From Massilia rubra (GTDB lineage: Bacteria > Pseudomonadota > Gammaproteobacteria > Burkholderiales > Burkholderiaceae_D): a stretch of DNA of 64,000 bases. This document shows positions 42,762-47,530 of this stretch, in pieces. The stretch's first letter is position 1. Each line of letters starts with the position of its first letter. The position numbers and the translations under genes were made by a program. The stretch covers positions 1-64,000 of the forward strand of contig NZ_VUYU01000013.1 in the NCBI RefSeq assembly GCF_011682065.1, read 5' to 3'. The notes beneath the pieces were generated by a model. That model was not told the DNA's origin, searched no databases, and saw only the letters and a program-made list of their open reading frames with translations.

Positions 42762-43676
42762 TTAGTCGTGCGCCTCCGGTTGCAGGGTCACGTGGTCGAT
42801 ACCGTGCCTGGCGAGCAGCATTTCCTTGACCATGGCCAGCACTTCCGGCCAGTCGCGCAGGTTGCCGATGCGCAGGTGGCCGATCAGGGCTGGCTGGCCG
42901 GGCGACATGTCCCACACATGCAGGTCGTGCACCGACAGTACGCCCGGCACGGCGGCGAGGTCGGCGCCCACTTGCAGGTAGTCGATCTGGTGCGGCACGC
43001 CTTCCATCAGCGCGTGGTAGGAGTCGCGCAGCACGCCGATGGTGGACTGTAATATCAACACCGATACAAACAGCGACAGCAGCGGGTCGATCGGCATCCA
43101 GCCGGTGAAGTAAATCACGGCGCCGGCGGCAATCGCCGCGATCGAGCCGAGAATGTCGCCCATCACATGCACCAGCGCGGCGCGGGTGTTGATGCTTTCC
43201 TGGTCGCGCGAGAGCAGCCAGGCCACCAGCAGGTTGATGGCCAGGCCGATCACGGCGACCACGAACACGGCGCCGCCCTCGACCTGCTGCGGGCTGCGGA
43301 AGCGGTGCAGCGCTTCGAACGCGATCCAGCCGACCACGGCCAGCATGGCGAGCGCGTTGACGAAGGCGGCCAGCGCTTCGGCGCGGCCGAAGCCGAACGA
43401 GTGGCGCGCCGAGGGCGGGCGCTTGGCGATCAGTTGCGCCAGCAGCGCCAGGCCGAGCGCGGCGCCGTCGGTGACCATGTGGCCGGCGTCGGAGATCAGG
43501 GCCAGCGAATTGGAGAGGAAGCCGGTCAGCACTTCGACCACGGCGAACACCAGGGTCAGGCAGAGGGCGACGGCGAGCGCGCCCTGGCTGCGGCCGACGC
43601 TGACGTGGGTATGTTTGGCGTCGCCCTTGTGATGGGCGTGCAGATGGGCGGAGGAGGGGGTGGGTTTGGCGTGCAT
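42762..43676 (-). CDS. cation diffusion facilitator metal exporter
   Basis: A 304-residue CDF-family zinc (or cobalt/cadmium) proton antiporter of the CzcD/ZitB type. It has a histidine-rich N-terminus (HLHAHHKGDAKHTHV), six TM helices, the TM2 metal site 'ALISDAGHMVTDG' (D-x-x-H...D), the TM5 site 'HVMGDILGS' (H-x3-D), and the cytoplasmic dimerisation domain with 'VHDLHVWDM'. ATG 43676 is chosen at the start of the His-rich tail. Nothing else lies between it and the tRNA promoter. Confidence 0.92.
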   Translation of the reverse strand: MHAKPTPSSAHLHAHHKGDAKHTHVSVGRSQGALAVALCLTLVFAVVEVLTGFLSNSLALISDAGHMVTDGAALGLALLAQLIAKRPPSARHSFGFGRAEALAAFVNALAMLAVVGWIAFEALHRFRSPQQVEGGAVFVVAVIGLAINLLVAWLLSRDQESINTRAALVHVMGDILGSIAAIAAGAVIYFTGWMPIDPLLSLFVSVLILQSTIGVLRDSYHALMEGVPHQIDYLQVGADLAAVPGVLSVHDLHVWDMSPGQPALIGHLRIGNLRDWPEVLAMVKEMLLARHGIDHVTLQPEAHD

Positions 43677-43764
43677 GACAGGAGTGTAATAGAAAACGCC
43701 AGCGCATTTCCCTGCCGTCAGGCGGGGTACTTCGAGGCGCTTGAACATCGTGTTTAAAAAGCGC

Positions 43765-43793
43765 TTGTCATTCGGGGAATGGCTCTCTATAAT
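43765..43793 (+). promoter_or_regulatory. strong sigma-70 promoter of tRNA-Val
   Basis: TTGTCA (43765-43770), 17-nt spacer, TATAAT (43788-43793). The tRNA begins 10 nt later, so the start site is only a few bases before the mature 5' end. The transcript can continue into the thrS leader. Confidence 0.88.
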
Positions 43794-43803
43794 GCTGGTC
43801 TTC

Positions 43804-43880
43804 GGGCGGTTAGTTCAGCTGGTTAGAATACTTGGTCGACATCCAAGGGGTCGGGGATTCGAATTCCTCACCGCCCACCA
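43804..43880 (+). tRNA. tRNA-Val (GAC)
   Basis: 77 nt including encoded CCA. The acceptor GGGCGGT / ACCGCCC pairs perfectly. D-arm GTTC...GAAT. Anticodon stem CTTGG / CCAAG encloses the loop TCGACAT, giving anticodon GAC at positions 34-36. T-loop TTCGAAT. Two oddities: position 33 is C where U is almost universal, and the 53-61 pair is A-T where G-C is standard. It is transcribed toward thrS. Confidence 0.88.
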
Positions 43881-43916
43881 GAACATGCAGTACTGAGTAA
43901 GAGAGAGAAAGGCACC

Positions 43917-43964
43917 ATGGTTATGACACCGCGAACTACGACGGAGTTATTCCAGCGACGCTAG
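43917..43964 (+). CDS. threonine-rich leader peptide upstream of thrS
   Basis: A 15-residue frame, MVMTPRTTTELFQRR, ending TAG. GAAAGG precedes ATG 43917 at 4 nt. Four of 15 residues are Thr, three of them consecutive (ACT ACG ACG at 43935-43943). The frame is followed by a terminator and then the threonyl-tRNA synthetase gene. The expected logic is that shortage of charged tRNA-Thr stalls the ribosome here and changes leader folding. No experimental support is known to me. Confidence 0.6.
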   Translation: MVMTPRTTTELFQRR

Positions 43965-43995
43965 TCGAGGTGCTTCCTTTTGCTTACTCAAAATG

Positions 43996-44023
43996 AAAAA
44001 CGCGGCTAGTCCGCGTTTTTTTT
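43996..44023 (+). terminator. intrinsic terminator/attenuator before thrS
   Basis: AAAAACGCGG (43996-44005), loop CTAGT, CCGCGTTTTT (44011-44020), T-run to 44023. It lies 76 nt before the thrS start. It either ends the tRNA-Val transcript or acts as the regulated attenuator of thrS. Confidence 0.9.
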
Positions 44024-44098
44024 CGTCCGCATTTTTGCGCACCCCTTTGTTTATACTCTTATTTGTCATTCCCTATCAGTTTCGTTCAGGAGAACAGC

Positions 44099-46006
44099 AT
44101 GGTTTCAGTCCGCCTTCCCGATGGTTCAGAGCGCCAGTTTGATGGCCCAGTCACCGTAGCCCAGGTTGCAGCGAGCATCGGTACAGGCCTGGCCAAAGCG
44201 GCGCTGGCCGGCAAAGTCGACGGCAAAGTCGTCGATACCTCCTTCCTGATCGAGCAAAACGCCGATCTGGCCATCATCACCGATAAAGATCCCGAAGGCC
44301 TGGACGTGATCCGTCACTCCACCGCCCACTTGCTGGCCTACGCGGTCAAGGAACTGTATCCGGAAGCCCAGGTCACCATCGGCCCGGTGATCGAAAATGG
44401 TTTCTTCTACGATTTCGCCTACAAGCGCCCGTTCACGCCGGAAGACCTGGTCGCGATCGAAAAGAAAATGGCCGAACTGGTCAAGAAGGATGAAAAAGTC
44501 ACGCGCACCGTGTTGCCGCGCGACGAGGCTGTCGCCTATTTCAAGTCCATCGGCGAAGCCTATAAAGCCGAAATCATTTCCTCGATTCCGGCCGGTGAAG
44601 ACGTGTCGCTGTACGCAGAAGGCGGTTTTACCGACCTGTGCCGCGGCCCGCACGTGCCCAACACGGGCAAGCTGAAAGTATTCAAGCTGATGAAGGTGGC
44701 GGGCGCCTACTGGCGCGGCGACTCCAAGAATGAAATGCTGCAGCGTATCTACGGCACCGCCTGGCTCAGGAAAGAAGACCAGGAACTGTACCTGCACAAC
44801 CTGGAAGAAGCGGAAAAGCGCGATCACCGCAAGCTGGGCAAGGCGCTCGATTTCTTCCACTTCCAGGATGAGGCGCCGGGCTTGATCTTCTGGCATCCGA
44901 AGGGCTGGACCATCTGGCAACAGGTTGAGCAATACATGCGCAATGTGTACCAGGTCAACGGCTACCAGGAAGTGAAAGCGCCGCAGATCCTCGATCGCGG
45001 CCTGTGGGAAAAGACGGGTCACTGGGACAACTATCGCGAAAACATGTTCGTCACCGAGTCGGAAAACCGCTCGTACGCACTGAAGCCGATGAATTGCCCT
45101 GGCCACATCCAGATTTTCAATTCCGGCATGAAGAGCTACCGCGACCTGCCGCTGCGCTACGGCGAATTCGGCCAGTGCCACCGCAACGAGCCGTCCGGCG
45201 CGCTGCACGGCATGATGCGGGTGCGCGGCTTTACCCAGGATGACGGCCACATTTTCTGTACCGACGAGCAGATTCCAGGCGAAGTCGCCGCCTTCCACGC
45301 GCAGGCGATGGAAGTCTATACCGCCTTCGGCTTCGAGAGCATCGACGTCAAGCTGGCCCTGCGTCCGGACAGCCGTATCGGCAGCGAGGAAAGCTGGGAC
45401 ATCGCCGAGGAAGCGCTGCGCAGCGCGCTGCGTGCCTGCAAGGTGGAATGGACCGAGCTGCCGGGCGAGGGCGCGTTCTACGGTCCGAAGATCGAGTACC
45501 ACCTGAAAGACAGCCTGGGCCGCGCATGGCAGGTCGGCACGGTGCAGATCGACCCGTCGATGCCGGGCCGCCTGGGCGCCGAGTACACCGCGCCGGACAA
45601 CACCAAGAAAGTGCCGGTCATGCTGCACCGCGCGATCGTCGGTTCGCTCGAGCGTTTCATCGGCATCCTGATCGAAAACTATGCCGGCGCGATGCCGCTC
45701 TGGTTGTCGCCAGTGCAAGTATCGGTGCTCAATATTTCGGATGCGCAAGCCGACTACACCCAGGAAATCGCAACGAAGTTGCGCAAACTCGGGTACCGCG
45801 TTCACGCTGATTTGCGCAACGAGAAAATTACGTTTAAAATACGTGAACATTCCGTCCAAAAAGTACCGTACATCCTCGTGATCGGTGACAAAGAACGGGA
45901 TGCCAACACTGTGGCCGTGCGAGCTCGTGGCAATGTCGACTTGGGAGTCATGTCCCTCGATGCCCTGGTGGAGCGCCTCAAACACGAGGTCGATTCCAAA
46001 GCTTGA
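44099..46006 (+). CDS. thrS: threonyl-tRNA synthetase
   Basis: A 635-residue class II synthetase charging tRNA-Thr. An N-terminal TGS domain (residues 1-62), the editing domain with '[19 protein letters not shown]' (from about residue 73), the catalytic core with zinc ligands in 'MNCPGH' and '[10 protein letters not shown]', motif 2 '[16 protein letters not shown]', motif 3 '[12 protein letters not shown]', and the C-terminal anticodon-binding domain. ATG 44099 has CAGGAGAA just upstream. Length equals E. coli ThrRS within a few residues. First protein gene of the thrS-infC-rpmI-rplT-pheST-ihfA block. Confidence 0.97.
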
Positions 46007-47453: not shown

Positions 47454-47497
47454 GCAATGATCGATGCAAGCGCCGCCCCCGGGTGGCGCGCAAAAAG

Positions 47498-47530
47498 CGG
47501 GGCAGAGGTTCAAACCTGTGCCCCGTTTTT
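47498..47530 (+). terminator. intrinsic terminator between rplT and pheS
   Basis: CGGGGCA-G-AGGT (47498-47509), loop TCAA, ACCT-G-TGCCCCG (47514-47525), then TTTTT. The stem has 11 pairs with one G-G mismatch. In E. coli pheST is controlled by attenuation; no phenylalanine-rich leader frame is seen here, so this may be a simple partial terminator. Confidence 0.85.

Follow-up and report, generated by a model that had tools for sequence, protein, structure and literature searches.

Expression of thrS in the window (the whole 64,000-nucleotide stretch of Massilia rubra DNA that was analysed) is very probably governed by a ribosome-mediated transcription attenuator that senses charged threonyl-tRNA, as judged from the sequence of the leader and its computed folds. 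RNA polymerase would start before tRNA-Val and transcribe the leader, on which a ribosome would translate a peptide beginning MTPRTTT. When threonyl-tRNA is scarce, the ribosome would stall at the Thr codons and leave a switch strand free to pair with part of the terminator, and transcription would then run on into thrS; a ribosome that reaches the stop codon would let the terminator form, and with no ribosome a long hairpin (43894-43990) would trap the switch strand and the terminator would form too. We infer translation of the leader, stalling upon it and induction of thrS by shortage of threonine or of threonyl-tRNA synthetase (ThrRS). The reading of the region as a Thr-peptide attenuator of thrS, put forward in an earlier note on this DNA, is supported by comparison of relatives and by the computed folds.

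The features of an attenuator that were found at the locus (Table 1) are a short ORF with a ribosome site, cognate Thr codons kept as amino acids and an intrinsic terminator before the gene, while an antiterminator exclusive with the terminator, whose strand can be covered by a ribosome at the stop codon, is predicted by computation. The Thr-rich leader ORF with its ribosome site and three consecutive Thr codons, placed by the earlier note at 43917-43964, was confirmed in the sequence. Two candidate ATGs (43917 and 43923) precede the TAG at 43962-43964, and translation of the longer ORF from the first ATG gives MVMTPRTTTELFQRR; the ORF is real, but the second ATG is the start kept across 46 aligned relatives, and hence the leader peptide is more likely MTPRTTTELFQRR. 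The Shine-Dalgarno-like AGAAAGG lies 10 nt 5' of the second ATG and 4 nt 5' of the first. The flanking inverted repeats that had been described are 78% complementary, and the terminator stem is perfect over 10 bp, as had been claimed, with the thrS start 78 nt 3' of it. The RNA from 43881 to 44040 folds with a z of -4.69, and 0 of 200 shuffles were equally stable.

Table 1. Features of the thrS leader locus, in positions of the window.
Feature	Position	Strand	Basis or remark
Probable promoter TTGTCA-17-TATAAT for tRNA-Val, leader and thrS	43765-43793	+	11/12 consensus matches
tRNA-Val(GAC)	43804-43880	+	Probably on the same primary transcript as the leader; arrangement common to most, not all, of 80 relatives
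P1 long hairpin, 5' arm, enclosing Shine-Dalgarno and ORF	43894-43911	+	Folding; native versus swapped partners
Shine-Dalgarno-like AGAAAGG	43906-43912	+	Sequence; invariant in 46 aligned relatives
Predicted leader peptide ORF	43923-43964	+	In-frame upstream ATG at 43917 possible
Proposed regulatory codons, Arg-Thr-Thr-Thr (CGA ACT ACG ACG)	43932-43943	+	
Predicted switch strand GCTAGTCG	43960-43967	+	Overlaps ORF stop codon; partner 44003-44010
P1 long hairpin, 3' arm	43973-43990	+	Folding; inverted repeat
Intrinsic terminator	43996-44024	+	10-bp stem 43996-44005/44011-44020 plus U tract
CGGCTAGT, terminator 5' arm and loop	44003-44010	+	Antiterminator partner of 43960-43967
thrS, threonyl-tRNA synthetase	44099-46006	+	Regulated gene in the proposed switch

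Two hairpins were observed beside these parts. A possible small one around GGUUAUGACACC, with the start codon in its loop, is seen at 43918-43931 and in relatives (RNAalifold columns 25-38); it is near-invariant, its only change being C-G to U-G. The other, at 47497-47530, resembles a terminator with its T run; it falls in the gap separating rplT from pheS, some 47 nt 5' of where pheS begins, and is a possible second regulated leader in which no Phe peptide was seen by eye.

Mutually exclusive folds were obtained for the window leader, the folds being thermodynamic, not kinetic, and the ribosome footprints assumed. With a ribosome on the Thr codons, modelled as RNA free from 43954, the antiterminator is in the best fold even with the whole terminator out, and this fold (-20.4) is more stable, by a small margin, than the most favourable one in which the terminator is imposed (-19.7). 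When the ribosome is at the stop codon and the RNA is free from 43977, the terminator forms, while the fold without a ribosome (-51.8) contains both P1 and the terminator. These folds refine the earlier reading: the switch strand overlaps the stop codon and has its partner in the terminator, and the long flanking repeat is the hairpin of the ribosome-free state.

Pairing was also scored across leaders. When one leader was taken from each of 22 families, the switch strand paired with its own terminator arm at -10.96 kcal/mol, against -8.80 when shuffled and -9.43 with foreign arms, and 0 of 200 draws were as low under either control. Over 114 distinct leaders the mean rank of the switch duplex among shuffles was 0.145, where 0.5 is expected, and 49 leaders had a rank of 0.05 or less; a foreign terminator arm equals or surpasses the native one in 29% of cases, so that the specificity of the switch strand is real but modest. 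The 1:2 pairing, between Thr-codon strand and stop strand, reached -10.15 against -8.22 for shuffles (0/300) and -9.22 for swapped strands (4%). For P1, an average of 26% of foreign partners match or outdo the native pairing, and the rank among shuffles is 0.05 or lower in 48 of 115 loci. The position of the switch strand at the stop codon, scored at family level, was not significant (12.6 of 22, against 9.9 with sd 2.3 in the shuffled null). RNAalifold, run on the core class of leaders (A1, 46 of 64 listed sequences), picked the antiterminator over the terminator unprompted. Within A1 the antiterminator has 92.9% of cells paired and no two-sided change, the terminator 95.7% paired with two-sided change in 2 pairs, and the 1:2 pairing no covariation. 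Compensatory changes in the stems, which the earlier note had proposed to look for, are accordingly weak within A1 and appear mainly as native pairing better than foreign pairing between families.

Conservation of the leader was followed first in 80 relative loci found with the initial 200 ThrRS residues as query, 73 of which carry a Thr leader ORF (Massilia eurypsychrophila, L008, being counted by its ORF). The genera concerned include Massilia, Duganella, Janthinobacterium, Herbaspirillum, Undibacterium, Noviherbaspirillum, Cupriavidus, Caballeronia, Paraburkholderia, Trinickia, Pandoraea, Acidovorax, Rhodoferax, Rhizobacter, Vogesella and Chromobacterium, and their peptides range from MTPRTTTELFQRR to MNKTTRTTTAGQRQ and MFKRTTTTRISR. 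The upstream comparison suggested in the earlier note thus shows the run of Thr codons, its frame, the terminator and the alternative pairing recurring within Oxalobacteraceae and beyond. In the wider order, thrS was located in 196 of 200 genomes and 100 upstreams were hand-picked among those listed, with strands and family labels copied by hand; a detector of an ORF plus terminator found the leader in 44 of the 100 genomes, in 22 of 44 families, and by the same rules 56 had none. From the 181 loci taken together (window, 80 relatives, 100 order genomes) 127 ORF-terminator pairs were obtained, and 10 were removed by eye to leave 117 leaders: nine as tRNA-overlapping or spurious (L095, L101, L108, L113, L123, L156, L165, L185, L085) and L008 for a misplaced terminator, although its ORF is real. 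ATG is the start in 113 of the 117, and Thr codons number at least three in 99, two in 16 and one in 2. In L008, about 80 extra bases, GC-rich and with inverted repeats seen by eye, lie between the leader stop and the terminator.

Seven of the 80 relatives show no Thr leader ORF (L042, L045, L053, L054, L067, L069, L085). Close relatives that keep the terminator but not the ORF, a pattern that the earlier note would have counted against an attenuator, do occur as exceptions: an Oxalobacteraceae MAG (L045) and a member of the window's family (L090), both still with tRNA-Val, and probably L053 as a third case, where the terminator is kept and no ORF is recognisable. We read these as losses, some of them in MAGs or in a small genome (G101, 2.2 Mb).

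The same exceptions can be taken to mean that the terminator merely ends the tRNA-Val transcript, that the ORF is coincidental and that thrS has its own promoter, and the presence of a tRNA upstream in most of the 80 relatives agrees with this; it is nevertheless quite improbable in view of the surroundings of the leader. Of the 73 leaders in the relative set, 12 lack a + strand tRNA over the 700 nt inspected upstream (a further locus, L032, whose contig starts inside the tRNA, is not counted among them), and hence the terminator of these 12 does not end a tRNA transcript and the arrangement does not require tRNA-Val. In 30 of the 117 leaders, from 14 families of the 100-genome order sample, no more than 30 nt separate the end of the terminator from thrS, and in 8 no more than 20 nt, so that there is scarcely space for another promoter. 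The Thr enrichment of the ORFs and their synonymous variation at codon 6, both described below, also argue against a coincidental ORF. In the window the candidate promoter 5' of tRNA-Val is the sole promoter-like match in 43600-44300, and a less stringent scan of the stretch from the terminator to thrS gave no match. The transcript shared with tRNA-Val that had been suggested is probable here, but the tRNA is a dispensable part of the arrangement.

A promoter of comparable position may exist in Cupriavidus. A published C. metallidurans start-site table lists a promoter under the gene name thrS with the RNA-gene locus tag Rmet_R0015 (PMC9045368), and a closely similar promoter stands directly 5' of tRNA-Val in the Cupriavidus locus of our set (L050), for which reason Rmet_R0015 is taken to be the tRNA gene. 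It was also observed that tRNA-Val(GAC) stands in tandem, in two or three copies, 5' of the leader in L009, L010, L012, L014, L019, L022, L024, L026, L027 and L030, where the window has one copy.

A Thr-specific coding signal in the thrS upstreams emerged from a neutral test, which counted for each amino acid the loci with a 7-30 codon ORF holding at least three of that residue in six codons, with dinucleotide shuffles as the null and no bonus for RT or CGAAC; 94 of the 100 order upstreams were usable, 6 being too short. Thr showed much the strongest enrichment of any residue (27 of 94 loci, 1.9 expected), and at least four Thr in six codons were present in 13 of the 94 (0.1 expected). Apart from Thr, only Phe was clearly in excess among these upstreams (14 vs 5.5 expected), an excess which we ascribe to T tracts. 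As a lineage control, 40 loci were hand-picked from 68 other thrS-bearing genomes (75 searched, including the window's own) in the other families of the class, presumably Gammaproteobacteria in the GTDB sense; in the 37 that remained after 3 proved too short, Thr ORFs were at chance (1 vs 0.9 expected).

Codon usage inside the ORF points the same way. In the 70 distinct ORFs beginning MTPRT or MAPRT, codons 1-5 hardly vary even in nucleotide sequence (CGA in 69, ACT in 59), codon 6 is Thr in 51 and is spread over ACC (15), ACG (13), ACA (13) and ACT (10), and codon 7 is ACC, ACG or ACT in 47. Gaps in A1 are multiples of three within the ORF and not so after the stop. These patterns in the aligned sequences support coding selection on the leader, and not RNA constraint alone.

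E. coli thrS is the textbook case of translational autorepression, and this precedent, together with GGTTATGACACCGCGAAC, which is nearly invariant as nucleotides in the 46 sequences of A1, could suggest that ThrRS protein binds the leader and acts on the terminator, the peptide only placing ribosomes. The E. coli operator does resemble the present leader in exerting feedback control on the same gene, whereas it works by protein-RNA repression of translation and has no translated leader with a terminator. Self-regulation of E. coli ThrRS is mentioned in a survey of premature terminators (PMC2965389). Binding of the leader by ThrRS is nonetheless the least probable of the alternatives considered, as the Thr codons vary synonymously, which a protein-binding site does not predict, and as the terminators that end within 20 nt of thrS, in 8 of the 117 leaders, leave hardly any room for an independent operator where the gene begins.

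Two other origins of the ORF were rejected. The 14-mer ATGACACCGCGAAC is single-copy in the window's genome, which discards a repeated motif; its exact form occurs in 23 of the 200 order genomes, at most 300 nt upstream of thrS in 16 and elsewhere in 5, the thrS place of the remaining 2 not being among those listed, and the reversed control pattern has matches in 3 of 200. A functional small protein was discarded on the grounds that conservation lies mainly in the N-terminal residues, with C-terminus and length varying.

Codon choice in the leader differs from that of its neighbours. ACT and ACA make up 238 of the 379 Thr codons in 104 distinct leaders, against 10 of 90 in five window genes, and this bias would fit published theory, in which attenuators favour starvation-sensitive codons (PMC1183508). 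The Arg-Thr dicodon CGA-ACT (43932-43937 in the window; also L006-L185) is nearly fixed despite the rarity of CGA in neighbouring genes: CGA is the Arg codon in 104 of 107 RT-containing leaders and in only 2 of 135 Arg codons of the five window genes. Since the choice of leaders gave a bonus to RT and CGAAC, the corresponding counts (107/117 and 105/117) are partly selected. The leaders of f23, f27 and f48 have poor 1:2 pairing and still keep CGA, so 1:2 pairing alone does not explain its fixation.

Such a fixed, rare codon might belong to a nascent-peptide or rare-codon stall (M-T-P-R-T, CGA-ACU) that senses a signal other than threonine, for instance a translation inhibitor, the more so as some families retain only MTPRT or xFRT. 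We regard this as unlikely, if somewhat less so than the other alternatives, for the leaders of f3, f22 and f5 have Leu, Pro or Asp in place of Arg yet keep Thr, leaders with three or more Thr codons predominate, and the downstream gene is thrS. Within the preferred reading, attenuation by charged threonyl-tRNA, it may be speculated with considerable doubt that the sensing core is the fixed slow dicodon CGA-ACU, in which the rare Arg codon would time the ribosome just before one decisive Thr codon; extra Thr codons would then be optional, some families could sense with one or two, and such a thrS attenuator would have spread through Betaproteobacteria.

Searches for known RNA families gave no other identity to the leader. 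Rfam holds a T-box model and an enteric threonine operon leader family; the T-box covariance model had no match in 43700-44150 with E allowed to reach 5, and none in 10 relatives at the gathering threshold, and the enteric threonine operon leader model none in the window region or the 10 relatives, in which no family other than tRNA was found at gathering. A whole-window Rfam scan at gathering also returned no match, yet a scan over a shorter range gives tRNA-Val 59.8 bits (cutoff 29), so that this whole-window negative is not reliable.

Judged by its sequence-level features, which are of the expected kind, promoter scans aside, the thrS leader is one that would work like the trp, his and pheST attenuators. 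E. coli pheST has a leader (pheM) attenuator in which, like here, a synthetase gene lies behind a short cognate-rich peptide and an intrinsic terminator, although it senses Phe and the likeness is one of description. The enteric trp, his and thr attenuators share the 1:2, 2:3, 3:4 logic but control biosynthesis, whereas the leader here would control a synthetase. For trp, PMC1183508 outlines regulatory codons in a short ORF and alternative pairings before a terminator. PMC8079986 already proposes a Thr leader, thrL-thrS, in Streptomyces lividans, besides attenuators of alaS, trpS and leuS; its Thr-containing peptide (MKRVRPFLETTPGFVPAR) is likewise assigned to thrS, but it has two Thr codons, a leaderless start and, according to its authors, no uridine-rich terminator, and it belongs to Actinobacteria, the peptides being compared by description. 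According to PMC8632094, uORFC-8-2 upstream of cysS in Rhodobacterales is another proteobacterial leader predicted to act on a tRNA synthetase gene as a ribosome-mediated attenuator, but with Cys codons and in Alphaproteobacteria. The word thrS is absent from the main text of the premature-terminator survey (PMC2965389), and in the open-access literature searched we found no report of a betaproteobacterial thrS leader.

Overall, if the proposed attenuation is true, many Betaproteobacteria would rely on a Thr leader peptide and attenuation of transcription to control thrS, and, with the autorepression of E. coli, two unrelated feedback circuits would have come to act on one essential gene. The leader would furthermore be a ready reporter for Thr-tRNA charging.
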